In this document: positions 12,520-29,456 of the stretch, one piece after another | Layout: the number at the start of each line of letters is the position of its first letter | Position numbering within the stretch: the stretch's first letter is position 1 | Assembly: GCA_910573755.1 (NCBI GenBank) | Contig: CAJTBO010000003.1 | Coordinates: 124,001-188,000 of the forward strand | DNA from: Lachnospiraceae bacterium | Lineage (GTDB): Bacteria; Bacillota; Clostridia; Lachnospirales; Lachnospiraceae | Reading direction: 5' to 3' | Length of the DNA stretch: 64,000 nucleotides | Program-made: the position numbers and the translations under genes | Notes under the pieces: generated by a model | Databases searched by the model: none | Told to the model about the DNA's origin: nothing | The model's input: only the letters and a program-made list of their open reading frames with translations

Positions 12520-12571
12520 AACAGATTTTCAGGCTATTGAAATAAAAAATTTTATAAAAAGGAGTAGGATC

Positions 12572-13282: not shown

Positions 13283-13283
13283 A

Positions 13284-13333: not shown

Positions 13334-13371
13334 CGTCTTTGTGTTATGCTGTTTCCGGACAATAAATACAT

Positions 13372-14262
13372 TTAATTTATATCGCTTTGGAGCTGCTGCC
13401 GTAATGTGGCAACCTGCTCTTCCAATGAACAAATAAGAGAATCTTTATTCTTGTTTGATGATTTCAATTCGGTTATTTCGGCATCCTTTTTCCTATTCGA
13501 CGATTTCAATTCTTCTATCTCCTGCTTTACGCCATCCCAAGTCCGCCGGTAATCCTCCCTCGCCTCGCACCGGTCACGAATCCGGTCATCCCCGTTCAAA
13601 GCAAAAAGTGTTTCTCCCGCTTCCTGCATACTCTTATTGCCCGCTGAGATCATCTTAAAATCCTCCCATGTCAGTGCCTTAAACAACCGTGCCCATTTAT
13701 CAAGACCATACTCCTTATCTTCTTTGACCGCTAAATGAATCTGAGTTAAGTCTAACACATGTATGGTAAACTTGTCACTATATTTATGATAGTTTTTTAC
13801 ATTCATCATTTTATAGGTTCCGAAAAACTCAGGGCGCTGGGGAAACAGCGTAAAATCCAGAATTCCGATCTGAAATGCGGGTTTTACGGTCCTGTAGGTA
13901 TCTCCTGCATTTAAGCCGTCAAAAAGCCGTGACAGATATACCAGTGAACGTTCCGGCCAATTATATTGGTTGTTCACCTGCATCTCTAAATTAATGGATG
14001 TATTGTTGTTCATCAGGATTTTAATATCCAGAATAAAATCCTTATCACTAATCTTTTTTCCCAGTTCAATGGGATTAAGGATCTGTACAGACCAGACATC
14101 GTCCGGGTTTAAGTGCAGCAGAGAACACAGGAAACTTTTTAATACATTTTCATTACTCTGCATAACACTCCGAAACATATAGTCATTCACAAGGGGATAA
14201 TCGATTGTACCGGTAAAAGATGCCAGTTTGGATATACTGCCGCAATTTTTTAGAATATTCAT
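13372..14262 (-). CDS. Rpn-family recombination-promoting nuclease (PD-(D/E)XK, transposase_31-like)
   Basis: A 296-residue protein. Residues 20-240 match the Rpn/PD-(D/E)XK transposase-like family: YPLVNDYMFRSVM near the start, then the nuclease core FILDIKILMNNNTSINLEMQ, whose Asp, Glu and Gln are the metal site, and PERSLVYLSRLF. Rpn proteins cut DNA and promote RecA-independent recombination or act in phage defence. The C-terminal 60 residues form a coiled coil of 14-residue repeats (ELKSSNRKKDAEIT, ELKSSNKNKDSLIC). ATG follows AAGGAG by eight bases. It stands alone beside decayed genes. Confidence 0.85.
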   Translation of the reverse strand: MNILKNCGSISKLASFTGTIDYPLVNDYMFRSVMQSNENVLKSFLCSLLHLNPDDVWSVQILNPIELGKKISDKDFILDIKILMNNNTSINLEMQVNNQYNWPERSLVYLSRLFDGLNAGDTYRTVKPAFQIGILDFTLFPQRPEFFGTYKMMNVKNYHKYSDKFTIHVLDLTQIHLAVKEDKEYGLDKWARLFKALTWEDFKMISAGNKSMQEAGETLFALNGDDRIRDRCEAREDYRRTWDGVKQEIEELKSSNRKKDAEITELKSSNKNKDSLICSLEEQVATLRQQLQSDIN

Positions 14263-14609: not shown

Positions 14610-15860
14610 TTATGCCAACGTATAGCTGTTCAGATACTTCTCCTGTTCCTCGGTCAGCACATCAATCTCTTTCCCAAGAAACGCCAGTTTTCTCTTTGCC
14701 ACATCAATATCCACTTCACGAGGCACATCGATCAGCTTTTCCGTAAGCTCACTGCCATGCTCTACTAGATACTTTGCAGACAGTGCCTGAATCGCAAAAC
14801 TCATATCCATGATCTCCGCCGGATGTCCATCCCCTGCTGCCAGATTTACAAGACGCCCCTCTGCAAGTACAAAGATCCACTGACCTGTCGGAAGCTTATA
14901 ACCCATGATATTTTTTCTCTGTTCTCTTGTTTCCAGAGCAATCTCTCGAAGGCGTGCCATATCGATCTCACAGTCAAAATGTCCTGCGTTGCAGAGAACA
15001 GCGCCGTCTTTCATCACCGCAAAATCTTCTTCATCGATAACCTTGTCACAGCCCGTAACAGTCACAAAGAAATCACCGATCTTAGCCGCTTCGTTCATCG
15101 GCATTACATCAAAACCGTCCATTACCGCTTCAATCGCCTTGATCGGATCGATCTCCGTAACGATAACCCGCGCGCCAAGCCCTTTTGCCCTCATGGCAGT
15201 TCCCTTGCCGCACCAGCCGTAGCCGGCAACTACAACGATCTTTCCCGCCACGATCAGGTTTGTGGTACGGTTGATACCATCCCATACGGACTGCCCCGTC
15301 CCGTAACGGTTATCAAAGAAATGCTTGCAGTCTGCGTTGTTTACCCGAACCATAGGGAACTTTAATTCCCCTGCATTGTTCATGGCTTCCAGACGGATAA
15401 TGCCGGTAGTTGTCTCCTCACAGCCGCCGATGATCGCCGGGATCAGTTCAGGCATCTTTGTATGAACCATGTTGACAAGATCCCCGCCGTCGTCGATGAT
15501 GATATTCGGACCCGCTTCCAGTACGTGACGGATATGCAGTTCGTACTCTTCCGGTGTGCAGTCATACCAAGCATGAACTTCCAGTCCGTCTTTTACCAGC
15601 GCCGCCGCCACATCGTCCTGTGTGGAAAGAGGGTTTGAACCTGTCACATACATATCTGCCCCTCCTGCTTTAAGCACTTTGCAGAGATAGGCCGTCTTTG
15701 CCTCGAGATGCACGGAAAGGGCGATCTTTTTCCCTGCAAAGGGTTTTGTCTCCGTAAATTCTTTTTCCAGAGTACGAAGCAGGTCGCAGTTCCGTTTCAC
15801 CCACTCAATCTTTCTTTCGCCGGATTCGGCTAAACTCAAGTCTCTGATTTCACTGTTCAT
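14610..15860 (-). CDS. ahcY: Adenosylhomocysteinase-family hydrolase (archaeal-like; possibly S-inosylhomocysteine hydrolase)
   Basis: A 416-residue NAD-dependent hydrolase that splits SAH (or S-inosylhomocysteine) to homocysteine and nucleoside. Visible sites: His51, Asp125 (IIDDGGDL), Glu149 (GCEETTTG), Lys179-Asp183-Asn184 (NNADCKHFFDN), and the NAD motif GYGWCGKG at 213-220. It has the short archaeal-type features: SNPLSTQDDVAAAL, no 40-residue insertion, and a C-terminus ending EKYLNSYTLA instead of the Lys/Tyr tail that reaches the partner's NAD in bacterial and eukaryotic enzymes. Start at ATG 15860 (GGAGG upstream). It follows an SAH/MTA deaminase gene on the same strand, which favours the inosyl route; that is inference. 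Confidence 0.93.
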   Translation of the reverse strand: MNSEIRDLSLAESGERKIEWVKRNCDLLRTLEKEFTETKPFAGKKIALSVHLEAKTAYLCKVLKAGGADMYVTGSNPLSTQDDVAAALVKDGLEVHAWYDCTPEEYELHIRHVLEAGPNIIIDDGGDLVNMVHTKMPELIPAIIGGCEETTTGIIRLEAMNNAGELKFPMVRVNNADCKHFFDNRYGTGQSVWDGINRTTNLIVAGKIVVVAGYGWCGKGTAMRAKGLGARVIVTEIDPIKAIEAVMDGFDVMPMNEAAKIGDFFVTVTGCDKVIDEEDFAVMKDGAVLCNAGHFDCEIDMARLREIALETREQRKNIMGYKLPTGQWIFVLAEGRLVNLAAGDGHPAEIMDMSFAIQALSAKYLVEHGSELTEKLIDVPREVDIDVAKRKLAFLGKEIDVLTEEQEKYLNSYTLA

Positions 15861-16137
15861 TTTTTTCCTCCAATAAAATGATGAGATATTCAGCCGAATT
15901 TTTATTATAGTGATGGTCGTCTGTCCTATCATCACTGGCACGCAGAGATATCTTTCTTATATAACATCTTTCCTGTATCATATTTTTAATCGAGCAGGAA
16001 AGATTTATCTTCCCCTGCCCGCCGCGCCGGGTGCGGGCAGCTTATGCTGCATCCTTCTTCTCCGCACCTGTGCACATATAAAATATCTCTGCATATAAAT
16101 TGATCGTTCACGCAGGGACCGCCCGGTATATCGTATC

Positions 16138-17439
16138 TCAATATTCCTTCTTATCCAGTCCCATCCGGACGATAATTTCATTAATCTTTTTATACACCAG
16201 TTCCTCGTCCATCGTCAATATCTTTCGTTCTTCCATCGTAATTTTTCCGTCGATGATCACAGTTTCCACCTCGGAACCGTTGGCGGAATAGGAAAGCCCT
16301 GCGATCAGATTATTCCGCGGCGTCAAAGAAGGCGTATTTAAATTAAGGATCGCAATGTCCGCTTTCTTTCCTTCCTCTATAGAACCGATCTCTTTTTCCA
16401 GGCCAAGCGCCTTCGCGCCGTTTATTGTCGCAATGCGGATTGTCTCTTTGGCACTGATGCACTGCGGCGTTTTTGCAACACCCTTATGGATCAGCGCAAG
16501 CAGGCTCATCTCGTGGAACAGGTTCAGGCTGTTATTGGAAGCAGCCCCGTCCGTGCCGATACATACATTGATCCCTTTTTCCAGCATCTCCGGAACAGGC
16601 GCAAAACCGTTCCCCAGCTTCATATTGCTTGCCGGGTTCGTAACCACGCTGACATTTTTCTTCCGTAAAATATCCATGTCGCTTTCCGTGATCTGTACAC
16701 AGTGGGCAGCCACCGCCGGCACATCAAAAAGTCCGTTTTTCTCTGCCATCTCGATAGGTGTACAATGGTATTTCTCTTTGATCTGTTCTATCTCGCTCTC
16801 ACTCTCGGAAAGATGCACATGAATCCGCATATTGTTCTTCTTCGCTTCCTCAGACACAATGCGCATAAACCCGTCGTCACAGGTATAAGGAGCGTGGGGT
16901 CCCAGCATAAAAGTCAGCCTGTCGCAGTCCGCCGCCGCATCTCTCTCCTCATACGCCTGATTAAGCCGCATCCGGCCTGCCTCGTCATTGCCGCTTCCCA
17001 CCAGCCCCCGGCTGATCACGGCACGCATACCGGATTCCTTCACCGCTCTGGTCGTCTGATGGATGTTCATCTGCATATCGTTAAAACAGGTCGTCCCGCT
17101 CTTCATCATCTCTATAATGGCAAGACAGGCGCCCCAGTAAGTATCTTCATCCGTCATCTGTTGCTCAATGGGGTCGATTGTCCCGAACAGCCAGTCCATA
17201 AAGCTTAAGTCATCCGCCACATTTCTCATAAAAGACATATAGGAATGTGTATGACAGTTTACAAGCCCCGGTATGGCAAGCCTGTCTTTCCCGTCTATCA
17301 CCCTATCTTCCGAAAATCCTTCCGGCCGTTTCCCGACAGACACAATCTTACTCCCTTCAATGTAAATATCCGTTTCCCGAATGACATCCCTGTCATCTTC
17401 CGGCAAAAGTGCCAGAATATTTTTTAATACAATTCCCAT
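16138..17439 (-). CDS. mtaD: 5-methylthioadenosine / S-adenosylhomocysteine deaminase (amidohydrolase)
   Basis: A 433-residue amidohydrolase of the ATZ/TRZ group. Metal ligands: His63 and His65 (NCHTHSYMSF), the barrel HVHLSESESE and AAHCVQITE histidines, and IGTDGAASNN with the catalytic Asp. TFMLGPHAPYTCDD is typical of SAH/MTA deaminases. It converts SAH to S-inosylhomocysteine and MTA to methylthioinosine, releasing ammonia. ATG start follows AGGAGG. It is 277 bases upstream of the AhcY-like gene on the same strand, the order expected for deamination followed by hydrolysis. Substrate is assigned by family only. Confidence 0.88.
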   Translation of the reverse strand: MGIVLKNILALLPEDDRDVIRETDIYIEGSKIVSVGKRPEGFSEDRVIDGKDRLAIPGLVNCHTHSYMSFMRNVADDLSFMDWLFGTIDPIEQQMTDEDTYWGACLAIIEMMKSGTTCFNDMQMNIHQTTRAVKESGMRAVISRGLVGSGNDEAGRMRLNQAYEERDAAADCDRLTFMLGPHAPYTCDDGFMRIVSEEAKKNNMRIHVHLSESESEIEQIKEKYHCTPIEMAEKNGLFDVPAVAAHCVQITESDMDILRKKNVSVVTNPASNMKLGNGFAPVPEMLEKGINVCIGTDGAASNNSLNLFHEMSLLALIHKGVAKTPQCISAKETIRIATINGAKALGLEKEIGSIEEGKKADIAILNLNTPSLTPRNNLIAGLSYSANGSEVETVIIDGKITMEERKILTMDEELVYKKINEIIVRMGLDKKEY

Positions 17440-17546: not shown

Positions 17547-18509
17547 CTACCCGTTTACCACATTGCAGGGTGTCCCTGCCAGAAAATTTTTAATATTCCG
17601 GTATACGCCGTCTACACAGCGTTCTCTTGCTTCCACCCCTGCCCATGCCATATGGGGTGTAATGATCAGACGGTTGCTGTCCTTAAACCTGCTCAGGGGA
17701 TTCTCATCTGTGATAGGCTCCTTCTCCAGCACATCCAGTCCTGCTGCCGCAATCTCCCCTTCTGTCAGCGCGGTATACAGATCGGCGCTGTTTACCACAG
17801 GCCCTCTCGCCACATTGATGAGCACCGCTGATTTTTTCATCTTCTTCATCGCCGCCAGATCGATCAGATTTCTTGTTCTGTCACTTAAAGGACAATGCAG
17901 GGAAAGTACATCCGACTGCGCCAGCAAAGTATCCAGATCCACTCTATCATATTCTGTACAGGTACTGTTTCCCGAAGCAGAATAAAAGATTATCTTACAT
18001 CCGAGACTCTCTGCCGCTTTCGCCACTTTCCTGCCGATATTTCCCATACCGACAATACCCCATGTCTTTCCATCCAGTTCCCAGAAAGCTTCATCAAAAT
18101 GAGAAAAGCGGCTCTGGGCGGCATATGCGCCGGATTTCACATACTCATCATAATAATGCAGTTTCTCTATCAGAAAAAGCGCCATAGCAATGCTGTGCTG
18201 TGCCACCATAGCCGTGGAATAATTCCTTACATTGCAGACCAAAATACCCCTGTTTTTACAATATTCTATATCTACATTATCATAACCCGTCGCAAACTCA
18301 CAGACCAGTTTTACATTCTTTGCGTCTTTCAAAGTTTCTTCTCTCACGGGCGCTTTATTGGATACCACGATATCCGCATCCTTTACCCGCTCTGCCACCT
18401 CTTCCATCGTCACCGTATTCGGATAAATCTCCAATTCCCCGAATTCCCCGAGGCGCTCCACATCGATATCGAGCCCTACGCTGTTTCTTTCCAAAATGAC
18501 TATCTTCAA
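17547..18509 (-). CDS. D-2-hydroxyacid dehydrogenase (glycerate/hydroxypyruvate type)
   Basis: A 320-residue NAD-dependent dehydrogenase. The substrate domain has CEFATGYDNVDIEYC, the Rossmann motif is TWGIVGMGNIGRKVAKAA, and the active site comprises Arg in INVARGPVVN, Glu in AAGLDVLEKEP and His in IITPHMAWAG. The closest style is HprA glycerate dehydrogenase. The start codon is TTG at 18509: GGAGGAG stands seven bases before it and the first in-frame ATG would delete the N-terminal strand. It lies after the sugar-acid locus but beyond a terminator, and 107 bases ahead of mtaD. It could reduce hydroxypyruvate or tartronate semialdehyde produced by that locus. Confidence 0.88.
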   Translation of the reverse strand: MKIVILERNSVGLDIDVERLGEFGELEIYPNTVTMEEVAERVKDADIVVSNKAPVREETLKDAKNVKLVCEFATGYDNVDIEYCKNRGILVCNVRNYSTAMVAQHSIAMALFLIEKLHYYDEYVKSGAYAAQSRFSHFDEAFWELDGKTWGIVGMGNIGRKVAKAAESLGCKIIFYSASGNSTCTEYDRVDLDTLLAQSDVLSLHCPLSDRTRNLIDLAAMKKMKKSAVLINVARGPVVNSADLYTALTEGEIAAAGLDVLEKEPITDENPLSRFKDSNRLIITPHMAWAGVEARERCVDGVYRNIKNFLAGTPCNVVNG

Positions 18510-18704
18510 ATTTCTCCTCCGTTCCGCCGCCCCGGCAGCTTACTTTAAACATAAGGACAGCCTGCATCTTTTTTCTGCTTATGCCTTTATTCTGCTGTTT
18601 TTTCTTAAAGATGTCAAGGGGAATGAGTAAGTCTTTAACATCATTCATTTCATAATACACACACCGGGGACCGCTTACGATATTCCCTTTCCTGCTTTCC
18701 GCGA

Positions 18705-18730
18705 TAAAATGCCGGGGCATTGCCCCGGCA
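18705..18730 (-). terminator. Terminator of the Gfo/Idh gene and upstream locus
   Basis: A perfect nine-bp GC-rich stem TGCCGGGGC / GCCCCGGCA (18710-18718 with 18722-18730) with a three-base loop and TTTTATC on the minus strand. Confidence 0.75.
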
Positions 18731-18767
18731 CCATATCACCTGTTTCACGCTTAAATCCCGCCCGGAT

Positions 18768-19760
18768 TCACTGTCTGTCCTGTGTCTCAAAAGGATATTC
18801 GATCCCCCACTCTTTTCTCCTCTCATCCATAAATTCCATCACGCGTATAGTCTCTGCATGGGGCATCTCCGGACATTCTAAAGCTCCTTCTTTCAATGCT
18901 TTTGCACAGGCCGCCACTTCATACTCATAACCTGTAATCTGCTTTGGCGCTTCTCTATAAAGAATTTTATTGCGCTCCTTATCATACACCGTAAAACTTT
19001 CATAATTATTAATATTTTCTATAACCATGAAACCCTCTGTTCCCTGAATGATGCCTTTTCTGTCCCCGATACAGCAATGGGAAGCTGTCAGAGACGCCAC
19101 CCTGCCGTCCCTGTACTGAATGGTGATGGTTTCCTGTTTATCCACGCCGGTTTCCGTATAAGTACAGAAAGAAGATACTTTTTCAATATCTGTCCCAAAG
19201 AAAATGGAAGCAAAATTGATCGGATAAACGCCCAGATCCAGCAGGCTTCCGCCTGCCAGCGCAGGATCATACAGTCTTTGGACATGCTCAAGGAAATAAC
19301 TTAAATTAGCGGAAAGCAGTTCCGGTTTTCCGATCATTCCCTGTTCCAGTACATCTTTTATCATATTTACCATAGGCATATATCTCGTCCAGATGGCTTC
19401 CGTGACAAAGACCTTCTCTTTCTCGGCATACTCAAGCACTTCCCTTGCCTGCCCCGCATTCACCGTAAATGCTTTTTCACATAATACAGGCTTTTTATAC
19501 TGGATACACAGCATCATATTATCGTAATGCTCGGAATGAGGCGTGGCAACATAAACCAGATCCACGTTCTTATCCTGCAGCATCGCCTCATAAGAACCGT
19601 ATGCTTTTTCCGTACCATACTCTTCCGCAAAAGCCTTTGCCTTCTCTTCCGTTCTTGATGCAATCGCATAAAGAATTACATCCTCCATGCCGTTTACTGT
19701 CTTTGCCATCATACCGGAAATATTTCCGGCTCCCATCAAACCGATCCGTAATTTGTCCAT
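18768..19760 (-). CDS. Gfo/Idh/MocA-family sugar oxidoreductase
   Basis: A 330-residue NAD(P)-dependent oxidoreductase. The N-terminal Rossmann motif is LRIGLMGAGNISGMMAKTV, followed by YVATPHSEHYDN and CEKAFTVNAGQAREV (the Glu-Lys-x dinucleotide/substrate motif). The C-terminal domain has GGSLLDLGVYPINFAS, which holds the usual catalytic Asp/Tyr region. Family members oxidise or reduce a sugar hydroxyl, often C1 or C3. I use ATG 19760 (GGGAG upstream); the frame is open 34 codons further but without a ribosome binding site. It is the last gene of the locus before a terminator. Confidence 0.88.
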   Translation of the reverse strand: MDKLRIGLMGAGNISGMMAKTVNGMEDVILYAIASRTEEKAKAFAEEYGTEKAYGSYEAMLQDKNVDLVYVATPHSEHYDNMMLCIQYKKPVLCEKAFTVNAGQAREVLEYAEKEKVFVTEAIWTRYMPMVNMIKDVLEQGMIGKPELLSANLSYFLEHVQRLYDPALAGGSLLDLGVYPINFASIFFGTDIEKVSSFCTYTETGVDKQETITIQYRDGRVASLTASHCCIGDRKGIIQGTEGFMVIENINNYESFTVYDKERNKILYREAPKQITGYEYEVAACAKALKEGALECPEMPHAETIRVMEFMDERRKEWGIEYPFETQDRQ

Positions 19761-19869
19761 TCTTTTCACTCCCTGCGCCTTTTGATTTTGATCATCTCTG
19801 TAAAACCCGCTGTTTTCCGATCCCGATAACCGCCGAATCTGTCTGCTGCCTGTACGCTCCATAAGCCGT

Positions 19870-21015
19870 TTACTGCCGGCTGTTCTCCTTCATTTTGAGA
19901 ATATAATCGCATACTGCATCAGCAACCATAATCTCTTCTTCATCCTTCAGATTATAAGCATTTATAAATACTATATTTTCCTCCATGCCGAATTCCGGCG
20001 GATATACGCCGACGTCCACTGCAGGAGTCAGACTTCTTGTATAGATATTACAGTTTTTTGCAGTCATATGTTCCGGCAGATACAGATGCAAAAGCGGCTG
20101 GAACGTACCAAGCCTTCCCTTCTGCAGCATCTCGGTCCGGATTCCCGTTTTTTCTTTTACGGTTTCCGCAATCTTCAGCAGCTTTTCCTCCTGTCTTTTA
20201 AACCTTTTTTCTTCATCCCCGGAAACAAACAGCTCCAGTGCCGTAATAAAACCGGCAAGTTCCTCCTTTCCTGTCTTAAAAGCCCGTCCCAGCCTCGGAT
20301 TGGGGCTTGCAAGCATTTTACAGAGACGGATCAACTCTTTATCTCCTACGATCAGCCCTGTACTCTGCGGACCTTTTATATGTTTTCCGCCGCTGAAGAT
20401 CGCCAGATCAGCTCCCAGCTTCTTAGTATAATACCATAAATTGGACGCAGGAGGAAGCTGTGCTGCAGCATCCACGATAATTTTTACTCCTGTTTCTTTC
20501 AGTACAGGTATGATCTCTTCACAAGAAGGAATTCCTTTTTCATAAAAAGATGCGGGAAACAACACACATGCCGCCGTCTTTTCACAGACCGCTTCTTTAA
20601 TATATCTTATATCCGGTTTTACTTTTATGATCTTTGCCCCCGTCAGCCCGGTCAGTCTCCAGTATGGAATAATATGCAGCACATCTCCGTTTATAACGAT
20701 AATCTCATTTCTGGAAAAAGAAGAAGTATCCGGCAGCATATCCATATTTTCTTCTCTGCCAAGACACATACACGCCCCGGCAGAAAGTTCCAGACCGGCA
20801 GAAGCGCCGGTCGTTACAAAAGCAGCCTCGTTCTGCGTAAGCTGTGCAGCCTTTTCACAGACTGCATTCCGCAGCGCCTCATATTCGATACAATGCCCTG
20901 CCGCCTGCATCATTGCCTCCACGGTTTCCTTTTCCATCAATGAACCTCCCAAATCCGTATAAGGTTCACTGGCATTAATGATTCTTTTTATATGTAATGT
21001 CTCATAACAGTTCAT
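19870..21015 (-). CDS. SelA/DgaE-like PLP-dependent enzyme (aminated sugar acid lyase candidate)
   Basis: A 381-residue fold-type I PLP enzyme. The cofactor Lys lies in FSGGKHIKGPQSTGLI, the form seen in D-glucosaminate-6-phosphate ammonia-lyase (DgaE) and SelA-like proteins. IIVDAAAQLPP supplies the Asp that contacts the pyridine nitrogen, and FVTTGASAGLELSAGA the phosphate-binding loop. DgaE removes ammonia from a 2-amino-2-deoxy-aldonate phosphate to give a 2-keto-3-deoxy acid. Whether this one uses a phosphorylated substrate is unknown; no kinase is beside it. It starts four bases after the amidohydrolase stop, so the pair is translationally coupled. Confidence 0.8.
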   Translation of the reverse strand: MNCYETLHIKRIINASEPYTDLGGSLMEKETVEAMMQAAGHCIEYEALRNAVCEKAAQLTQNEAAFVTTGASAGLELSAGACMCLGREENMDMLPDTSSFSRNEIIVINGDVLHIIPYWRLTGLTGAKIIKVKPDIRYIKEAVCEKTAACVLFPASFYEKGIPSCEEIIPVLKETGVKIIVDAAAQLPPASNLWYYTKKLGADLAIFSGGKHIKGPQSTGLIVGDKELIRLCKMLASPNPRLGRAFKTGKEELAGFITALELFVSGDEEKRFKRQEEKLLKIAETVKEKTGIRTEMLQKGRLGTFQPLLHLYLPEHMTAKNCNIYTRSLTPAVDVGVYPPEFGMEENIVFINAYNLKDEEEIMVADAVCDYILKMKENSRQ

Positions 21016-21019
21016 TTTT

Positions 21020-22606
21020 TCAAACCTGCCCTCTTTTTATGCATTCTCCGCTTAAAATTCCGGTTATTCCCCCGTTTTCCAGTACGGGAAGGCCGTTTAC
21101 CAGTACGGTTTCCACTCCTTCCGCTCCGCACCTCGGGTGTTCAAAGTCTGCCCTGTCTCTCAATTTCTCAAAATCCATAATACAGATATCCGCATAGTTT
21201 CCTTCTTTTAACATACCGCGGTCTTTGATATGGTATATCTCTGCAGGCAGTGCCGAAAGTTTCCGGATAATATATTCTGCAGGCACATTACGTTCCCGCA
21301 TCATGCGGATCGTCCTCGAAAGGCCTCCAAAAGTCCTCGGATGGCATAAAACCCCTTCCGGGATCGTATCACTTCCCACCGTATACCGGTCATCCGTAAA
21401 CAGACGATACTGGTCATCATACAGCTTTTCTTTTAATTCCTCCGTCTGATTTTCCACACCGACAAAGCCTGCTTCCAGATCATTTTCCAAAAGCAGCCGG
21501 ATCACTGTCTCCTGAAACGTCTCGTGATGTTCTTCCGAAATCTCTTTCAGCGTCTTCCCGATCGAATCCGCATATCTGTTTTTTGTCAGGGCAACTCTGG
21601 CAGTCTGCCCTTCCGCAAAGAAATGGGGATGCCTCTCCCGCATATCCGCAAGCAGTTTATCCCGAAGCGATGCAGAGGACAACCGCTCCATGATCGCCTC
21701 ATAACCGCCCTCCTGCGCCCAACCGGGCAGAAGCGCAAGAAGCAGCCCCGCGCCCACCAGATACGGATAAAACTCATAATGTATATCCGCTCCGGCTTTT
21801 TCCAATTCCGTAAACGGTTCAAATACGGTTTGATAATCCTCCCAGCCGCCGGTCCTGTAATGCAGCATATTCAGCCGCACCCCTGTCTCCTCCACTACTT
21901 TTACAACCTCTTCCAGAGAAGTACGGGGAATCTGTCCGTCGTTTAAGCGCTGATGGACGCAAAATATCCCGTCATATTTTTTTACGATCTTACAAAGTTC
22001 CACGATCTCTTCCGTATCCGAAAAGCCGCCCGGATAGTAGGAAAGCCCAACGGACAATCCCACGGCGCCGCTTTGCAGCGCCTTCTCCAACTCTTCCTTT
22101 GCCTTTTCCAGACTGTTGCCGGTCAGTTTCTGATCCGCAAAACCACAGACATATTCCCGGATGGCATTGTGGGATACGTTGGATGCCGCATTCACTGCAG
22201 CGCCCCCGAGCAGTTCCAGATATTCCGCAAAACTGCTCCACACCGGTAAATATTTTCCCTGATTTGCAAAAATTCCTCCGTTCATACAAAGGGAGCGTTT
22301 TAATCCTTCCGGTGTAGTGGGTGCAAAACCCAGACCGCACTGTCCGGTCACGATCGTGGTAATTCCCTGATATATCGCATGGGGCTGCTGTCTGTTATAC
22401 ATCACATTCAGTTCGGAATGTGTATGTCCGTCGATCAGCCCCGGCGTAACGGTCTTCCCTTTTGCATCGATTACTTTTTTCGCCGCTTCATCGATCCTGC
22501 CTGCAATTTTCACAATCCTGTTTTTTACAACCGCAATATCACCAATAAAAGATTTCTCTCCGCTGCCATCAACGATCCTGCCGCCTTTTATCACAATATC
22601 ATACAT
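21020..22606 (-). CDS. N-acyl-D-amino-acid deacylase family amidohydrolase
   Basis: A 528-residue amidohydrolase of the D-aminoacylase type. IDGHTHSELNVMY holds the HxH pair, VTGQCGLGFAP the family Cys that bridges the metal, FCVHQRLNDG and RLNMLHYRTGGW further ligands, and FTDDRYTVGSD the catalytic Asp. C-terminal LNG-style segment VLVNGLPVLENGGITG is typical. It removes an acyl group from an N-acyl-D-amino acid or similar compound. Placed directly before the PLP enzyme, it may make the free amino compound for that enzyme. The 61-base gap to the enolase gene holds a hairpin (GCCGGTT / AACCGGC, 22621-22639). Confidence 0.88.
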   Translation of the reverse strand: MYDIVIKGGRIVDGSGEKSFIGDIAVVKNRIVKIAGRIDEAAKKVIDAKGKTVTPGLIDGHTHSELNVMYNRQQPHAIYQGITTIVTGQCGLGFAPTTPEGLKRSLCMNGGIFANQGKYLPVWSSFAEYLELLGGAAVNAASNVSHNAIREYVCGFADQKLTGNSLEKAKEELEKALQSGAVGLSVGLSYYPGGFSDTEEIVELCKIVKKYDGIFCVHQRLNDGQIPRTSLEEVVKVVEETGVRLNMLHYRTGGWEDYQTVFEPFTELEKAGADIHYEFYPYLVGAGLLLALLPGWAQEGGYEAIMERLSSASLRDKLLADMRERHPHFFAEGQTARVALTKNRYADSIGKTLKEISEEHHETFQETVIRLLLENDLEAGFVGVENQTEELKEKLYDDQYRLFTDDRYTVGSDTIPEGVLCHPRTFGGLSRTIRMMRERNVPAEYIIRKLSALPAEIYHIKDRGMLKEGNYADICIMDFEKLRDRADFEHPRCGAEGVETVLVNGLPVLENGGITGILSGECIKRGQV

Positions 22607-22667
22607 GCAATACCCTCCCTGCCGGTTTGTACAACCGGCCGATCATTAAATATATCATCTAAAATCT

Positions 22668-23885
22668 TTACGGCCTCACCGCCGTACCATCCTCAATCCT
22701 GCTGTAGAGCCAGCTGAAATCCATAGTATCGACAGCCGGATATTTCTTCGCTTTTTCTTCATCAAAGTCAACGCCGATGCCCGGTTTATCATTCAGGTAT
22801 GCATAACCGTTTCTTATCTGAGGACATCCCGGGAATACTTCTTCTTCCGCCTCGTTGAAGCCGGCGAATTCCTGTATTCCGAAATTCGGAGAGGACAGAT
22901 CCAGATGCATCTGTGCCGTCATGCCGACGGGTGATAAATCATTCGGTCCGTGCCATGCGGTCCTCACCTGATAAGCCTCGCTGAATGCCGCAAGTTTTCT
23001 TGCCGGCGTCAGTCCGCCGATATCGCTGATATGTACCCTGATATAATCGATCCACTGATTCTGGATGATCGTTTTCCACTCCAGAGAATTTGTAAATAAT
23101 TCTCCCATTGCAAGTGGGGTCGTCGTATGATTCCGGAGTTTTTCAAAATAACCCACCTGATCCGGGCGCAGCGCATCTTCCACATAAAACATCTTGAACT
23201 GTTCAAATTCTTTTACAAGGTTCAGTGTATCGATGGGCGTCAGCCTTTCATGGATATCATGCAGAAGTTCCACATCCCACCCGATGTCATTTCTTACTTT
23301 CTCAAAAAGCTTCACTGTGCTCTGCATATAACGCTTCGGGCTGTAATACATGCCGTCCGGCGCATTTTCCGGTTTGTTCAGTTTCTGGGGCGCGCCGTTC
23401 ATGGTTCCCCCGTAGGTTCCCATCTGACATCTTATATAGCGATATCCCTGTTCCTGCAGAACATGCAGATTTTCTGTCACTTCCTCTATCGTATTTCCGT
23501 CCGCATGTTTATAAACGGCAACTCCCTCCCGGCATTTTCCGCCGAACAATTCATACAACGGCAATCCCGCGATCTTTCCCTTGATATCCCAGAGCGCCTC
23601 ATCAACGCCGGATATCGCATTGTTTAAAACCGGTCCGTTTCTCCAGTAGGAACTTCCCATCATAGTCTGCCAGATATCCTCCGTATTATATACGGATCTG
23701 CCGATCAGCATCGGACGGAGGTATTCCTGAATGGCAGGGATGACTGCCTTGTATCTCCATGTGAAAGTTGCACAGCCAAGCCCGTAGAGTTCCGGCTCCG
23801 ATGTCTCCACCTTTACCACTACCAGATTGATGCCGTGAGGCGCTGTGATGATTGTTTTAATATCTCTGATTGTAATGTTTTTCAT
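22668..23885 (-). CDS. Enolase-superfamily sugar acid dehydratase (ManD/RspA type)
   Basis: A 405-residue mandelate-racemase/enolase family member of the mannonate dehydratase subgroup, collinear with E. coli RspA. Metal and catalytic sites: LLHDIHERLTP (Asp and His), FYVEDALRP (Glu), AMGELFTN (Glu), and WHGPNDLSPV (His). GPVLNNAISGVDEALWDIKG and the final SRIEDGTA are also family marks. It dehydrates an aldonic acid such as mannonate or gluconate to a 2-keto-3-deoxy acid. Subgroup members differ in activity, so the substrate is open. It lies between the transporter and the deacylase genes. Confidence 0.88.
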   Translation of the reverse strand: MKNITIRDIKTIITAPHGINLVVVKVETSEPELYGLGCATFTWRYKAVIPAIQEYLRPMLIGRSVYNTEDIWQTMMGSSYWRNGPVLNNAISGVDEALWDIKGKIAGLPLYELFGGKCREGVAVYKHADGNTIEEVTENLHVLQEQGYRYIRCQMGTYGGTMNGAPQKLNKPENAPDGMYYSPKRYMQSTVKLFEKVRNDIGWDVELLHDIHERLTPIDTLNLVKEFEQFKMFYVEDALRPDQVGYFEKLRNHTTTPLAMGELFTNSLEWKTIIQNQWIDYIRVHISDIGGLTPARKLAAFSEAYQVRTAWHGPNDLSPVGMTAQMHLDLSSPNFGIQEFAGFNEAEEEVFPGCPQIRNGYAYLNDKPGIGVDFDEEKAKKYPAVDTMDFSWLYSRIEDGTAVRP

Positions 23886-23952
23886 ACTTCATCCTCTTCT
23901 TGGTTATTATCCGGCTGTCAGCGCACAATAACCATATCATTTATATTTTTTA

Positions 23953-24786
23953 TTAACTCTTTACCGCACCGCTTGTCATACCCGCAATGAAATATCTCTG
24001 GAAACACAAGAACAGGATGATCAGCGGAAGACAGGACATGCTCGATGCCGCCATCATATCATTCCAGTGTACCTGATTCTGTGTATTCAGGGAAACGATA
24101 CCTACCGTCAGCGTTTTCAGTGAATCCTTAGAGATCAGAATAGATGAATACATATATTCATTCCAGCCGTTGATCAGTACAAAGATTGCAACCGCCGCAA
24201 TACCGGGTATCGTAAGAGGCAGCACAACTTTTGAAAAGATCGTAAAACTGTTTGCCCCATCCACCCTCGCCGCTTCATCCAGTTCCAGAGGAATTGTCTC
24301 AAAATAAGAAGTCATCATCCAGGTGCTGAACGCGATATTCGTTGCTGCATAGACGATAGTCAGTCCCAGCAGGGAGTTTGTTAAACGGTAAGCGCTGAGC
24401 ACGGCATAAAACGGAACCACCAGCATTACGCTCGGGAAAGTCTGCGTTACCAGCAAAAATGCCATAAACTGTTTCTTCCCTTTAAATTTAAATCTTGTTA
24501 CGCCGTATCCTGAAAAGCAGGCACAGGCAGTACAGATCACCATGGAGCCCAGACAGGTCACCAGTGAGTTTCTTGTCATTTTTCCGAAACTGTACAGACC
24601 GAAAAACTTTTTAAAGGAATCCAGAGATATCGGGCTCGGAATCCATACCGGAATAGGAGAATAGGTTTGCGCTTCCCCCTTGAAGGCTGTCGAAACCATC
24701 CATAATACAGGCACTATAATAAACAGTGACAACACAATTAAAATCAGATATCTGGCTGCTGCCATTATTTTCTTTTTTGATTTCAT
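23953..24786 (-). CDS. Carbohydrate ABC transporter permease (MalG type)
   Basis: A 277-residue permease with six membrane spans. The cytoplasmic EAA loop ELDEAARVDGANSFTIFSKVVLPLTIPG contacts the ATPase. N-terminal signal anchor starts MKSKKKIMAAARYLI. Pairs with the MalF-type permease six bases upstream and the binding protein at 25931. No dedicated ATPase is in the locus, so it probably shares an MsmX-like ATPase, as many Clostridia and Bacilli sugar systems do. Confidence 0.93.
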   Translation of the reverse strand: MKSKKKIMAAARYLILIVLSLFIIVPVLWMVSTAFKGEAQTYSPIPVWIPSPISLDSFKKFFGLYSFGKMTRNSLVTCLGSMVICTACACFSGYGVTRFKFKGKKQFMAFLLVTQTFPSVMLVVPFYAVLSAYRLTNSLLGLTIVYAATNIAFSTWMMTSYFETIPLELDEAARVDGANSFTIFSKVVLPLTIPGIAAVAIFVLINGWNEYMYSSILISKDSLKTLTVGIVSLNTQNQVHWNDMMAASSMSCLPLIILFLCFQRYFIAGMTSGAVKS

Positions 24787-24792
24787 ATCCGC

Positions 24793-25692
24793 CTATTCCT
24801 CCTTCAGTATAAGTCTGTAGATTTTGCTGATCAGATAACATATTCCGAATACTATGATACCCCATGCAGATGCCTTGCCAAACTGCAGATCATTGAACGC
24901 CGTACCATAGATACTCAGGCTTACCAGATCCGTCGCTTTGCCGGGGCCGCCTCCTGTCATCGTATAAACCAGCGTATACTGCTTGAACCACCATACACTG
25001 TCCAGAATAAGTGTTGTAGTAAGCACGGGCCGCAATCCCGGTACCGTTACATGAAGGAACTGTTTCCATTTTGTTGCTCCATCGATCATTGCCGCTTCAT
25101 ACAGGTCTTTTGAAACACTCTGCAAACCGGATAAAATCATCGTCATAACAAGCGGATATCCCTTCCAGATACAGACAAATACGATCGTCGGGAACGCAAG
25201 GCTTCCCGAACTTAACCAGGACATATTGCTGCTGATAAGGCCCAGAGATTTTAGGATGGCATTTAATACGCCGTACATCGGATTTAATATCCATGTAAAG
25301 AGCAGGGCTATCACACTTTCCGGAAACAGCCAGGGCAGCATAAAGATCACCCTGAAAACGGTCCTCCCTTTAAATTCCGTATTCAGAAGGGAAGCTGAGA
25401 TAAATCCAAGCAGGAAGTGCCCTATTACAACAAGAATCATAAATTTAAAGGTTAACAGTACAGAAGAATAAAATTCCGAATTGGTAAATGCCTGAATATA
25501 ATACCTGAGTCCCACAAATTTCCATTTTGTAACAAGGTTTGTATTAAAAAAGCTGATATATAAGCCGTATGCCATCGGATAGATGATCATGGCAATCATC
25601 GCAAAGGCTGCCGGACCGATAAATGCATATCCGATGGACTGTCTTTTTTCTACCTTGCCTTTCTTTGTTTTTTTTATTGTATCTTTACTCAT
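24793..25692 (-). CDS. Carbohydrate ABC transporter permease (MalF type)
   Basis: A 299-residue permease with six membrane spans and the EAA loop DLYEAAMIDGATKWKQFLHVTVPGLRP. The start is the ATG at 25692 with GAAGG upstream; 11 more open codons exist 5' but lie next to the tandem repeats. It forms the channel with the MalG-type partner. Confidence 0.93.
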   Translation of the reverse strand: MSKDTIKKTKKGKVEKRQSIGYAFIGPAAFAMIAMIIYPMAYGLYISFFNTNLVTKWKFVGLRYYIQAFTNSEFYSSVLLTFKFMILVVIGHFLLGFISASLLNTEFKGRTVFRVIFMLPWLFPESVIALLFTWILNPMYGVLNAILKSLGLISSNMSWLSSGSLAFPTIVFVCIWKGYPLVMTMILSGLQSVSKDLYEAAMIDGATKWKQFLHVTVPGLRPVLTTTLILDSVWWFKQYTLVYTMTGGGPGKATDLVSLSIYGTAFNDLQFGKASAWGIIVFGICYLISKIYRLILKEE

Positions 25693-25710
25693 TTCACTTC
25701 CTTCTTTCAT

Positions 25711-25838
25711 AAGTAACGTCCACACGCTTTGCGAGTGGCCTTATACTAAGTAACGTCCACACGCTTTGCAAGTGGCCTTATACTAAGTAACGTCCACACG
25801 CTTTGCAAGTGGCCTTATACTGCAACGTCCACACGCTT
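25711..25838. repeat. Three and a half 37-bp tandem repeats between binding-protein and permease genes
   Basis: Units at 25711-25747, 25748-25784 and 25785-25821 and a partial copy (25822-25838). Units 2 and 3 are identical; unit 1 differs by one base (GCG for GCA). Each contains CCAC...GTGG arms that can form a small hairpin in the minus-strand mRNA; the one base difference swaps a G.U pair for G-C, so pairing is kept. Possible roles are mRNA processing or stabilisation between the highly expressed binding protein and the permeases. Confidence 0.9.
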
Positions 25839-25843
25839 CCATT

Positions 25844-25879
25844 TTACAAAACAAGTGAGGATGACTCCCCACTTGTTTT
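25844..25879 (-). terminator. Partial terminator after the binding-protein gene
   Basis: Minus-strand stem AAAACAAGTGGGG with CCTCACTTGTTTT (25879-25867 with 25860-25848; one G.U), then TTTTG. It lies inside the operon, a common way to give more binding protein than permease. Confidence 0.75.
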
Positions 25880-25930
25880 GCTGTTTCATAAATTGTTGTT
25901 TTATTGCATTACAGGAATCTTTCCTGACAT

Positions 25931-27316
25931 TCAGTTATATTCTTCCAGTAAAGTTTCCATCTCTTTTACAAGATCGTCCACTGCCTGTTCATTGGTCTTA
26001 TCGCCGCTGAATACTGCTGAATATGCATCGCCGAGAACACTCTTCAATGCGCTCATGCCGGGGAAATTGATGACATCAAGACATCCTGCATCAATTGTTG
26101 CCAGATAACCTGCATAGTCATCACCTGTGATATAATCTACTTTCTGTCCTTCTACAGTAGAAGGAATTTTTCCGCTTGACTGCCAGAATTTGTATTCCGG
26201 ATCATTAATACTGAAGAATTTCAGGAATTCTACTGCTGCCGCTTTTTCTGCATCACCTGCCATGCTGCACAGAGCATAACCTTCTGCATTCAGCATTGTA
26301 CCGGGATGATCGCCCGGAATCGGAAATGAACCGAGTTTTCCTTCAAGATCCGGATTATTTGCGTAAGCTACGCCCATGGCATTAGAGCCGGAAAGGATCA
26401 TGCTTGTATAGCCCATAGCAAAATAGTTTGCCGCTGTAGCATAGTCTACTTCCGTAATACCTGTCGGAACCACACCGTCTACGTTGTTCATATTTGTCCA
26501 GAAGGTAAATGCATCCAGAAATCCGTCAGAACCGATATCTGTTGTCCATTCACCGCCGTCCTGTTCAACCAGTGTAAAGCCCTGGCTCCATAAGTAACTC
26601 TGGAAACGGCTCTGTCCTGAAGAGTTGTTGGAACCAACCATGGAGAATCCCCACTGATCGATCTCGCCGTCACCGTCGGAATCTACTGTCAGCGCCTTTG
26701 CGCATTCCAGAAACTCATCCCATGTTTTTGGAACAGAAAGGCCTGCTTCATCGAATCTGTCTTTTCTGTAAATAACGGCACTGGGCTGTACATCGATCGG
26801 ATAGAATGCCATCTCGCCGTCTAATGTACAGGCTTCTATAATGCCGTTTGCAAAAGAATTCAGTGTTTCATCATCCAACTGTCCATTTAAATCTTCCATC
26901 AGACCTAAATCAAACAGGCTCGGTGCCTGATCGACACTTGTAAAGAACAGTGTCGGCAGATCATCCGGAGATGTAGCCATAGCGGCAAGCTTTGTGTAGA
27001 TATCATTACTGCTGATCGCCGTTACTTCCACTGTAATATTTGGATACTGTTCCATAAATTTCTCAGCATATTCATAAATATACTGTCCGTGAGGATCTTC
27101 ACTTGCATACGCACATAAAACTGTAACTGTAACTTCTTCGTCACCTAATGCTGTACCCCCCCGATCTTCTGATGCGGGTTCTTCTGCTTCCACACTTTCT
27201 TCCTGTGCCGGAGCGTCCGATGCGTCCTGTGTATCTTCAGCGCTGTTTCCACAACCTATTAAGGTTCCTGCCACCATTGTCAGTGACAAAATAACTGCCA
27301 AAATTTTCTTAGACAT
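25931..27316 (-). CDS. Sugar ABC transporter substrate-binding lipoprotein (cluster 1)
   Basis: A 461-residue extracellular solute-binding protein (MalE-like). Lipoprotein signal peptide MSKKILAVILSLTMVAGTLIGC with the lipobox LIGC, a Glu/Ala/Asp-rich linker, then VTVLCAYASEDPHG and the family segments IYRKDRFDEAGLSVPKTWDEF and GSFPIPGD. Anchored on the cell surface, it delivers a carbohydrate to the two permeases downstream. It is the first gene of the locus, so it should be the most abundant product. Confidence 0.93.
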   Translation of the reverse strand: MSKKILAVILSLTMVAGTLIGCGNSAEDTQDASDAPAQEESVEAEEPASEDRGGTALGDEEVTVTVLCAYASEDPHGQYIYEYAEKFMEQYPNITVEVTAISSNDIYTKLAAMATSPDDLPTLFFTSVDQAPSLFDLGLMEDLNGQLDDETLNSFANGIIEACTLDGEMAFYPIDVQPSAVIYRKDRFDEAGLSVPKTWDEFLECAKALTVDSDGDGEIDQWGFSMVGSNNSSGQSRFQSYLWSQGFTLVEQDGGEWTTDIGSDGFLDAFTFWTNMNNVDGVVPTGITEVDYATAANYFAMGYTSMILSGSNAMGVAYANNPDLEGKLGSFPIPGDHPGTMLNAEGYALCSMAGDAEKAAAVEFLKFFSINDPEYKFWQSSGKIPSTVEGQKVDYITGDDYAGYLATIDAGCLDVINFPGMSALKSVLGDAYSAVFSGDKTNEQAVDDLVKEMETLLEEYN

Positions 27317-27387
27317 TTGATTCCTCCCAATTTTTTATGTGATTTTTACGTAATTTTTTATGCAATCGTTAAGTTTAACTGCATCCT

Positions 27388-27413
27388 ATTTTGAATCGTG
27401 CACAATTCAAAAT
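27388..27413. promoter_or_regulatory. 26-bp palindrome upstream of the transporter operon (operator candidate)
   Basis: ATTTTGAAT-C-GTGCAC-A-ATTCAAAAT: symmetrical apart from one central pair. It lies 72 bases upstream of the binding-protein start, between that gene and the AraC genes. The high symmetry suits a dimeric repressor better than an AraC protein, which usually binds direct repeats. Confidence 0.6.
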
Positions 27414-27520
27414 GGATTTATACCGGTATATTTTGCGTTTTTCCTAACATGTCTACAAAATAACATATATCCCGCGGTAAATGTCACCGAATTTATCTTA
27501 AAAATCATCATTTTTTATAC

Positions 27521-27561
27521 AAAAAGGGAAAACCACCATTTTTTTGGAAAATGATGGTTTT
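27521..27561 (-). terminator. Terminator of the AraC pair
   Basis: Minus-strand stem AAAACCATCATTT / AAATGGTGGTTTT (27561-27549 with 27541-27529; one G.U) followed by CCCTTTTTG. It begins at the stop codon of the second AraC gene. Confidence 0.75.
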
Positions 27562-28499
27562 TAATATACGTCAATCAAATAATGTTTTTTGAGATATGCT
27601 TGATGCTTTTTTCTGTATTGCAGAGGAGATATCTGCATCATTTCATTAAACTGACGCAGAAATGTATTTACACTTGTATATCCTACCTCCGTAGCTAATG
27701 CTTCTATGCTGATCTCAGACCTTTCCAACAGACGTACCGCATTGGAAACCCTGACCGTATTAATATATTTTTTAATATTTATGCCGCATTCCAGTTTAAA
27801 ATATTTACTGATCGTACCGGGCTGAAAATAAAAACGTTCTCCGAGTTTTTCCAGATTGATCTCTTCTCTATAGTTCAGATCAATATAACTCTTAATCTGA
27901 AGCATGGTCTGATGAAGCGGGGAATGAGCTGTTTCAAGGTTCTGAAAATGTAATCTTCTTTTCAACATCAGTGTCAGCATATGAATAAGAACTGCCACTA
28001 TCTCCGCACTGTCTTTTTTAGGATTTCTCGTTTCTTCCCTCAAATGCCGCAGAATATGGATATATTCGGCAAACTCCCTGTCCGGCAGACCTTTTAAAAG
28101 TATACTGTTTTCAGGACTTTGCGTCTGGTAAATATCCAGATAATCACTAATCGCGGGAATTGTCCTTATATATACGGGGAGCATCGTTAAACCATACCGG
28201 TTATACGGAATTTCTGTCAATTTCGCAAAATGAAAATCCATTGCTCCTATCATCAGAATATCATTTTTGCCGATCATATAAGTTTCACCGTTTATTTTAT
28301 ATTCTGCTCCCCCGCTTTCGCCAAAAAGAAGTTCTATGGAATTATGTCTGTGATTGATGATACCCGATCCTGAATCAGAAGTATGTGTCACATAAACATT
28401 TTCTTCATTCATTTCGATAAAAGCCGCACCGTCCGCAGTATAGGCTTCTCTCGGCCTTTTACCGTCATATTCCATTTGTTCGTACATTCGTAAAATCAC
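27561..28499 (-). CDS. AraC-family regulator (copy 2 of a tandem pair)
   Basis: A 312-residue regulator. Residues 1-170 form a cupin sensor (YKINGETYMIGKNDILMIGAMDFHF); residues 205-305 are the two helix-turn-helix motifs (EEINLEKLGERFYFQPGTIS, then SIEALATEVGYTSVNTFLRQFNEM). It is a close paralogue of the next gene upstream over its whole length. The start is unsure: GTG 28499 gives the N-terminus that matches the paralogue, ATG 28487 is also possible. Probably activates the neighbouring sugar transporter operon in response to a sugar. Confidence 0.9.
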   Translation of the reverse strand: MILRMYEQMEYDGKRPREAYTADGAAFIEMNEENVYVTHTSDSGSGIINHRHNSIELLFGESGGAEYKINGETYMIGKNDILMIGAMDFHFAKLTEIPYNRYGLTMLPVYIRTIPAISDYLDIYQTQSPENSILLKGLPDREFAEYIHILRHLREETRNPKKDSAEIVAVLIHMLTLMLKRRLHFQNLETAHSPLHQTMLQIKSYIDLNYREEINLEKLGERFYFQPGTISKYFKLECGINIKKYINTVRVSNAVRLLERSEISIEALATEVGYTSVNTFLRQFNEMMQISPLQYRKKHQAYLKKHYLIDVY

Positions 28500-28523
28500 A
28501 TCCCTTCTATTACCGGAAAGCTT

Positions 28524-29456
28524 TCAGTTAGAATTAATCATATGGCAGTTTTTCAAATGTGCCATATATTTTTTTCTGTATTGCAATGGAGATATCTCCA
28601 TCATCTCATTAAATTGGCGAAGAAATGTATTCACGTTCGTATAACCTGCCTCAACAGCCACAGCTTCTATACTGATAGAAGATTTTTCCAATATTCTTGC
28701 CGCATTTGAGATTCTTACGGTATTGATATATTTTTTGATGTTTGTGCCACACTCCAGTTTAAAATATTTACTGATCGTACCGGGCTGGAAATAAAACATT
28801 TCTCCCAGCCTCTCTAAGCTGAGATCCTCTTTATAATTGATGTCAATATAGTTTTTTACCTGCATCATAGTCTCATGAATCGGTGAATGAACATTTCCTC
28901 CGTTTTTAAAACTTAATTTTCTTTTCAGCATCAATGTCAGTATATGAATATATGCCGCCACGATCTCTGCACTGTCTTTTTTGGGATTTCTTGTTTCTTC
29001 CCGTAAATGTCTCAAAATATGCACATATTCTGCAAATTCCCTGTCGGATAATCCCTTTAACAGCATACTGTGTTCCAAATCCTGTGTTTTATAAATATCT
29101 ATATAATCATTTACGGCAGGAATTGTTCTCATATAAGCCGGCAGCATTGTCAGGCCATAGCGGTTAAACGGAACTTTTGTAATCTTCCGGAAATGAAAAT
29201 CCATTGCCCCGATAATCAGAATATCGTTTTTACCGACAGAGTAAACCTCTTTATCTATCTTATAATCCGCTTCGCCCTCCTCACAGAAAAGAATCTCCAC
29301 AGAAGTATGCCGTTGATTGATAATTTCAAAATCCGAATTAGAAGTATGTGTTATATAAACATTCTGTTCATTCAGCGCAATAAACGAACCGTCCGGTGCA
29401 TATGCCTCACTTGGCCTTATACCGTCATATTCCATCTGTTCGTACAGCCTGTCCAT
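28524..29456 (-). CDS. AraC-family regulator (copy 1 of a tandem pair)
   Basis: A 310-residue regulator with the same build as its downstream paralogue: cupin part with YKIDKEVYSVGKNDILIIGAMDFHF and a C-terminal double helix-turn-helix (LGEMFYFQPGTISKYFKLECG, SIEAVAVEAGYTNVNTFLRQF). Identical blocks such as FAEYVHILRHLREETRNPKK/FAEYIHILRHLREETRNPKK show a recent duplication. Start at ATG 29456 after AAGGGG; upstream codons overlap the promoter. Twenty-four bases separate it from the second copy, so they form one unit. Confidence 0.92.
   Translation of the reverse strand: MDRLYEQMEYDGIRPSEAYAPDGSFIALNEQNVYITHTSNSDFEIINQRHTSVEILFCEEGEADYKIDKEVYSVGKNDILIIGAMDFHFRKITKVPFNRYGLTMLPAYMRTIPAVNDYIDIYKTQDLEHSMLLKGLSDREFAEYVHILRHLREETRNPKKDSAEIVAAYIHILTLMLKRKLSFKNGGNVHSPIHETMMQVKNYIDINYKEDLSLERLGEMFYFQPGTISKYFKLECGTNIKKYINTVRISNAARILEKSSISIEAVAVEAGYTNVNTFLRQFNEMMEISPLQYRKKYMAHLKNCHMINSN

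Follow-up and report, generated by a model that had tools for sequence, protein, structure and literature searches.

The window analysed here is a stretch of 64,000 nucleotides from the genome of a Lachnospiraceae bacterium, and on its minus strand it carries an operon in which a sugar ATP-binding cassette (ABC) importer is encoded together with an aldonate dehydratase, an N-deacylase and a pyridoxal phosphate (PLP) enzyme. Which compounds do these proteins degrade, and do their activities meet? The first-pass annotation of this DNA proposed that deacylation followed by PLP-dependent elimination on one side, and dehydration of an aldonate on the other, converge on a 2-keto-3-deoxy acid. Our comparisons support this idea: the trio of deacylase, PLP enzyme and dehydratase recurs in relatives, and parallel sets are found on another contig of the same genome (C4) and on a haloarchaeal plasmid (L056). 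We judge it on balance probable that the operon catabolises unphosphorylated sugar acids through its own ABC importer, one branch of them bearing an N-acyl-amino group at C2, and we regard it as likely that the branches converge on a 2-keto-3-deoxy acid. What speaks most strongly for this idea in outline is that different protein families do the same set of jobs on contig C4, in haloarchaea and in the ong pathway of oxidative chitin utilisation in Pseudoalteromonas. The route is most likely a new arrangement of a kind known from marine chitin degraders and not wholly undescribed. The earlier remark that no described pathway has this gene set overlooked the ong pathway, which leads from N-acetylglucosaminate over glucosaminate to 2-keto-3-deoxygluconate (KDG) (PMC9537276).

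The names and positions given earlier for the ten genes hold, and family matches agree with them. All ten open reading frames (ORFs) lie on the minus strand and are listed in transcription order, with coordinates as positions of the window.

28524-29456, minus strand: AraC-family regulator 1; HTH_18 and AraC_binding matches; ATG start at 29456 (mechanical ORF from TTG 29522)
27561-28499, minus strand: AraC-family regulator 2; 71% identical to regulator 1
25931-27316, minus strand: family-1 sugar ABC solute-binding protein; SBP_bac_1, 124.8 bits
24793-25725, minus strand: CUT1-type ABC permease 1 (MalF-like); BPD_transp_1
23953-24786, minus strand: CUT1-type ABC permease 2 (MalG-like); BPD_transp_1
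22668-23885, minus strand: ManD-subgroup aldonate dehydratase of the enolase superfamily; NCBIfam ManD, 422 bits (below the cut-off of 550); closest solved chain 3tw9
21020-22606, minus strand: D-aminoacylase-like amidohydrolase/N-deacylase; catalytic residues intact, pocket unlike that of OngB
19870-21015, minus strand: DgaE-like fold-I PLP protein, putative ammonia-lyase; TIGR01437, 153 bits (below the cut-off of 385.3), residue comparison and tree
18768 to about 19760, minus strand: Gfo/Idh/MocA oxidoreductase, accessory; probable ATG at 19760, mechanical ORF from 19862
17547-18509, minus strand: D-2-hydroxyacid dehydrogenase, accessory; NF006263, 392.6 bits (above the cut-off of 389)

Conservation of the gene set in relatives

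The PLP gene is rare, being present in 5 of 299 family genomes at E <= 1e-60 (the window's own genome counted), and a class-wide search returned 1 of 391 genomes, which is the window itself. Relatives were collected by one pattern-based contig scan, which yielded 15 loci out of 74 candidate stretches and can miss relatives. Eleven of these are Clostridial relatives (L032-L042), among which L034, L041 and L042 are short contigs where absences are weak; the record of L035 bears the flag UNVERIFIED_CONTAM. The deacylase gene adjoins the PLP gene in all eleven. An enolase-type aldonate dehydratase is present in ten, nine of them of ManD type (L032-L040) and one of DgoD type (L042; 551 bits against a cut-off of 311), and a RidA-family gene in nine (all except L032 and L033). 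A CUT1 sugar importer is found in the window and in all eight relatives whose locus is long enough (L032, L033, L035-L040), each of which also holds a homologue of the solute-binding protein. Since the order ABC-ManD-deacylase-PLP is repeated in relatives, the grouping of the operon genes is not due to chance.

While this core of the catabolic set proposed earlier stood, two further members of it did not. The Gfo/Idh gene of the window type is missing in ten of the eleven relatives, L032 being the one that has it; L037 and L041 carry other members of the Gfo/Idh family close to the cluster, so that some Gfo/Idh is nearby in 3/11 overall. The hydroxyacid dehydrogenase is restricted to L032 and L033 (2/11). 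Because of these low counts neither gene is considered core, and both an obligatory oxidation by Gfo/Idh as the first step and a role for the hydroxyacid dehydrogenase are weakened. In L041, an SMP-30/gluconolactonase-type gene and a different Gfo/Idh stand beside RidA, deacylase and PLP genes, and this gene set is a variant form of the route suggested earlier. We also considered a route for muramic acid, with D-lactate expelled by the PLP enzyme and passed to the hydroxyacid dehydrogenase, and set it aside as unsupported; the dehydrogenase was not found in 9/11 relatives, some of which are short contigs.

More distant loci are less uniform. In three Poribacterial relatives (L043-L045) neither a deacylase nor a dehydratase nor a Rid gene was seen in the available stretch, which in L044 is just 4.2 kb. 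In L046 (Propionibacteriaceae) the PLP gene is paired with a deacylase that keeps S290, S292 and E226 of OngB (36% identity to OngB, 30% to the window deacylase), and a GH20 gene lies upstream; this locus is not used as support because an intervening gene was read by eye as prolyl-tRNA synthetase. A plasmid search for the deacylase returned generic D-aminoacylases only, all with <60% identity.

The same functions in other protein families

A second cluster in the same genome (C4:109054-120219; positions 8054-19219 of L066) encodes a solute:sodium symporter (SSS), a D-aminoacylase-like deacylase, an iron-containing alcohol dehydrogenase, RidA, a fold-type III PLP enzyme, a GntR regulator (by eye), a dehydratase, an aldolase and a kinase. 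The PLP enzyme is OngC-like, of the D-serine-dehydratase type, with 23% identity to OngC over 249 positions; the dehydratase is of IlvD/Edd type, the aldolase is a 2-keto-3-deoxy-6-phosphogluconate (KDPG) aldolase and the kinase is a KDG-kinase-like PfkB protein. This cluster thus holds the same functions as the window operon in other protein families. Relatives of its PLP gene occur in 7 other genomes among the 299, and five of the seven loci were viewed. Symporter, deacylase, RidA, GntR and dehydratase are kept in L078; L079 has deacylase and RidA, L081 deacylase and a CUT1 ABC importer, and L080 RidA and a CUT1 ABC importer. L082, truncated by a contig end, has none of these.

Contig C4 also bears on how the route could be completed. 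As stated earlier, none of the ten operon ORFs is a kinase or an aldolase, but this contig has two KDPG-aldolase genes, and next to each stands a gene for a PfkB kinase. At C4:120560-123858 (positions 2560-5858 of L067) a DgoD galactonate dehydratase gene (648 bits against a cut-off of 311) is divergent from a kinase and a KDPG-type aldolase. KDPG aldolase is present in 11/11 host genomes of the relatives as against 99/150 family genomes, a modest enrichment. Ribonuc_L-PSP has just 2 matches in the 4.88-Mb genome, and the RidA of the C4 cluster is 65-69% identical to that of the sister operons L037, L038 and L040; from this identity it could serve the window operon as well. A further PfkB-family kinase lies within the window at 42278-43258 on the minus strand, 13 kb from the operon.

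The ong pathway shares with the window operon a deacetylase of the D-aminoacylase fold, a PLP ammonia-lyase acting next, KDG as the product, a RidA-family protein in the system and the lack of phosphorylation before KDG (PMC9537276). There are differences as well. The lyase OngC is of fold-type III whereas that of the window is of SelA/DgaE type; uptake is by an SSS symporter instead of an ABC importer; KdgK is encoded in the cluster, whereas the window operon has a kinase only in trans (PMC9537276). The ong cluster includes RidA, which the window operon lacks, and the window deacylase lacks the pocket residues of OngB. The part of the published account available names no aldonate dehydratase (PMC9537276), and none is annotated in L068, the matching plasmid cluster of Pseudoalteromonas (deaminase, regulator, deacylase, RidA, kinase and GH20), while the window operon has one of ManD type.

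A predicted N-acetylglucosamine route in Natrarchaeobius includes the same kinds of protein in its chitinase clusters, namely a DgaE homologue, galactonate dehydratase, glucose dehydrogenase and a RutC-family (Rid) protein (PMC12343721). It is archaeal, deacetylation by CE14/CE4 esterases precedes oxidation, and its authors postulate a kinase and describe the pathway as hypothetical (PMC12343721). Eight haloarchaeal plasmid loci were viewed. L056, whose cluster resembles this predicted route, combines a CUT1 ABC importer, dgoD, a PIG-L deacetylase, a DgaE-like PLP enzyme, Rid, glucose 1-dehydrogenase and a lactonase; L058 has a PIG-L deacetylase, an enolase-type gene, glucose 1-dehydrogenase and Rid, and L060, which lacks Rid, pairs a PIG-L deacetylase with a gene annotated as mannonate dehydratase. 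The other five lack most of the L056-type set, the totals being 3/8 for Rid (L055, L056, L058), 2/8 for enolase-type genes (L056, L058) and 3/8 for PIG-L (L056, L058, L060). A literature search, judged by titles and the starts of abstracts, found no description of the gene set of the window operon.

PLP enzyme

The name DgaE-like given earlier to the PLP enzyme is right in that the protein is a homologue of the SelA/DgaE type, but it is not DgaE itself. The dga pathway of Salmonella (DgaABCDEF) has a homologous PLP enzyme with the same chemistry on an amino-aldonate; it differs in import by a phosphotransferase system (PTS) with 6-phosphorylation and in having, in DgaE, phosphate arginines and the pair His162/His163 (PMC9529869). 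As described, it includes neither a deacylase nor a dehydratase, both of which are present in the window operon (PMC9529869). The window protein keeps the PLP lysine (SGGK), as do its operon kin, and scores 132.4 against a cut-off of 600 with NF047797 and 153 against 385.3 with TIGR01437. At the positions of the phosphate arginines Arg301, Arg332 and Arg346 it has L, G and Y, and at His162/His163 a Ser and a gap, whereas five of five Lachnospiraceae DgaE-type proteins keep all three arginines and the His pair. Identification as DgaE was rejected on these residue losses. Some distant kin without the His pair retain an Arg at 301; the residue at DgaE Arg226, which is assigned to the alpha-carboxylate (PMC9529869), varies in both groups and was left unused.

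Because the phosphate-binding arginines are lost, the substrate of the PLP enzyme probably carries no 6-phosphate. The loss of His162/His163 bears on the end of the reaction. The H163A mutant of DgaE retains activity, but an enamine-like intermediate escapes from it, and RidA is named as the type of enzyme that breaks down such enamines (PMC9529869). By analogy with this mutant the window enzyme may release an enamine, which would account for RidA in the sister operons. In a tree of 55 aligned proteins, the 32 without the His pair lie all on one side of one branch and the 23 with it on the other (support 100/98), the window protein being outside the latter group. Rid was found near the PLP gene for 17/32 proteins without the pair and 4/23 with it (Fisher p = 0.011; stretches of 4-26 kb), a contrast for which the tree offers only one independent pair. 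Dropping L053 and L123, the two proteins that combine the His pair with a Cys at 346 and both of which have Rid, leaves 2/21 (p = 0.0013). Rid matches are weak in L121 (38 bits) and L129 (32 bits), which have the pair, and in L055, which lacks it (39 bits, annotated Rid); no Rid was found in the five Lachnospiraceae DgaE-type loci (L132-L136). L053 (Rhizobium etli pRetMIM1d, 3926-11938), in which a His-pair DgaE-like protein stands beside RidA, an ABC importer and an allantoicase/ureidoglycine aminohydrolase gene, is a different use of the DgaE-like family.

Deacylase and dehydratase

Deacylase residues are numbered as in OngB (PMC12017989), and at 15/15 checked positions the L068 protein from Pseudoalteromonas has the residue expected. 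The catalytic and metal set H68, H70, C97, H222, H252 and D368 is kept in all twelve operon deacylases (window and L032-L042), and judged from its residues the window protein is equipped with the zinc/aspartate catalytic set known from subtype-V amidohydrolases. Also present are the arginine and tyrosine by which OngB holds the alpha-carboxylate, and N-acyl 2-amino acids whose carboxylate is free are a reasonable prediction for the substrate class. The window deacylase is 27% identical to OngB and 27% to the C4 deacylase, which has a Thr at OngB position 292 as in D-aminoacylases. These identities, together with changes in the pocket described below, place it in a separate clade; equating the protein with OngB was rejected since the specificity residues are not kept.

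The best match of the window enolase is the ManD subgroup (NF043051, 422 against a cut-off of 550 bits). Homology to the closest solved chains 3tw9, 4ihc and 3t6c is full-length (E 3e-152 to 1e-157; 3tw9, 1.2e-157), but the score lies below the ManD equivalog cut-off and the substrate cannot be predicted from such a match. We take 3tw9/3twb to be a gluconate dehydratase.

Proposed route and competing explanations

In the route that we favour, sugar acids would be imported by the ABC importer of the operon, and the deacylase would strip the N-acyl group from a 2-acylamino-2-deoxy-aldonate. The PLP enzyme would then eliminate water across C2-C3 and ammonia would leave, giving a 2-keto-3-deoxy acid; an enamine released on the way may be converted to the keto acid by a RidA-type enzyme, for which most sister operons have a gene and the genome studied here has one on contig C4. 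In parallel the ManD-type enzyme may act on gluconate or mannonate as the companion hexonate and dehydrate it to this acid too, from which the KDG-kinase-like and KDPG-aldolase proteins of contig C4 would yield pyruvate and glyceraldehyde-3-phosphate. In the window lineage Gfo/Idh may additionally oxidise free sugar as an optional step.

Several observations weigh against this route. RidA is missing from the window operon and from loci L032 and L033. Oligosaccharides are a frequent cargo of CUT1 importers, yet no glycosidase is encoded among the operon genes. The specificity residues of OngB are lost in the window deacylase, where G replaces both S290 and S292, K replaces Q298 and N replaces E226, and among the twelve operon deacylases only that of L041 retains one of them, Q298. 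Of eight substrate-anchoring residues four differ too, with N in place of L116, R of K254, A of S291 and I of L370. These eight, including the four that are changed, are described as strictly conserved among known groups (PMC12017989), and at the four positions the window protein thus also departs from AfDam-like D-aminoacylases. Because of these changes N-acetylglucosaminate itself may not be the substrate. The association of Rid with loss of the His pair amounts to one comparison and is not independent evidence, since the pair changed once, at one deep split. Finally, in L113/L114, from another Bacillota lineage, a PLP enzyme without the His pair and a Rid sit with peptide-type ABC genes (types partly from ORF starts), L113 carrying a deacylase and L114 another amidohydrolase; this set may be an N-acyl-amino-acid pathway, and deacylase, PLP enzyme and RidA alone therefore do not imply a sugar.

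The same loci favour catabolism of N-acyl-D-amino acids, in which the deacylase would free a 3-hydroxy D-amino acid resembling D-serine or D-threonine, the PLP enzyme would deaminate it to a 2-keto acid, RidA would clear the enamine and the dehydratase would be an unrelated sugar-acid step sharing the transporter. It is in line with the action of characterised deacylase relatives on N-acyl-D-amino acids (PMC12017989) and with the deamination of D-serine and D-threonine by OngC (PMC9537276). We nevertheless hold it to be unlikely, given the CUT1 sugar importer in the window and in all eight long-enough relatives, an aldonate dehydratase kept in 10/11 and drawn from two subgroups, and the lactonase-type and Gfo/Idh genes of L041. 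Import of a single conjugate, either an N-aldonoyl-D-amino acid or an amino-aldonate with an aldonate as its acyl group, would account for the presence of an aldonate dehydratase and an amino-acid lyase in one operon: the deacylase would cut the amide, the enolase would take the sugar acid and the PLP enzyme and RidA the amino half, and each half would end up as a 2-keto acid. Gly at 290 and 292 could suit a larger polar acyl group, as could the Asn at 116 found in 12/12 operon deacylases, where OngB has a Leu lining the methyl of the acyl group. The present data establish no such nutrient, however, and the haloarchaeal (PIG-L deacetylase, glucose dehydrogenase) and C4 (KDG-kinase-like, aldolase) parallels suit separate sugars, which makes the conjugate quite improbable. 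As for the phosphorylation state, DgaE is the best named family match of the PLP enzyme, and a DgaE-type enzyme would prefer a 6-phosphate substrate. The rounded scores of 132 against 600 and 153 against 385, the absence of all five DgaE residues kept in its Lachnospiraceae counterparts, the position outside the 23-protein clade and the lack of a PTS or kinase in the operon leave very little room for this possibility.

Transcription and neighbouring genes

With gaps of only 4 bases between the deacylase and PLP genes and 6 bases between the two permease genes, the core operon reads as one transcription unit. The two AraC regulators are 71% identical to each other. Between the second of them and the binding-protein gene, the scan for terminators gave a terminator-like site, an A/T-rich hairpin with a T-rich tail at 27561-27529. 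A GC-rich hairpin followed by T's at about 18730-18703, seen by eye and not listed by the scan, lies in the gap between the Gfo/Idh and hydroxyacid dehydrogenase genes, and the latter probably forms a separate transcription unit. No tRNA genes were found in the window, and Rfam gave no match there at the gathering threshold.

Downstream, at 14610-17439, an amidohydrolase resembling deaminases of S-adenosylhomocysteine (SAH) and methylthioadenosine adjoins a putative SAH hydrolase (names by eye), so that two SAH-removing enzymes seem to be adjacent; homologues of both genes also trail the operon in L032 and L033. In L032, two ORFs of the PD-(D/E)XK type (PF12784) at 12518-13743, probably one broken gene, lie between Gfo/Idh and hydroxyacid dehydrogenase genes, and an ORF resembling them by eye is found in the window at 13372-14262.

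Implications

If the favoured route is true, catabolism of oxidised amino sugars by deacetylation and PLP-dependent elimination extends from marine chitin degraders (PMC9537276) to anaerobic gut bacteria, where it would use a non-orthologous lyase and have a built-in aldonate branch. For the SelA/DgaE superfamily a rule would follow, by which proteins that lack both His163 and the phosphate arginines are expected to use substrates without a phosphate and to let an enamine go, hence their RidA neighbours. Genes now annotated as selenium transferase, class-V aminotransferase or D-aminoacylase could accordingly be given better names.

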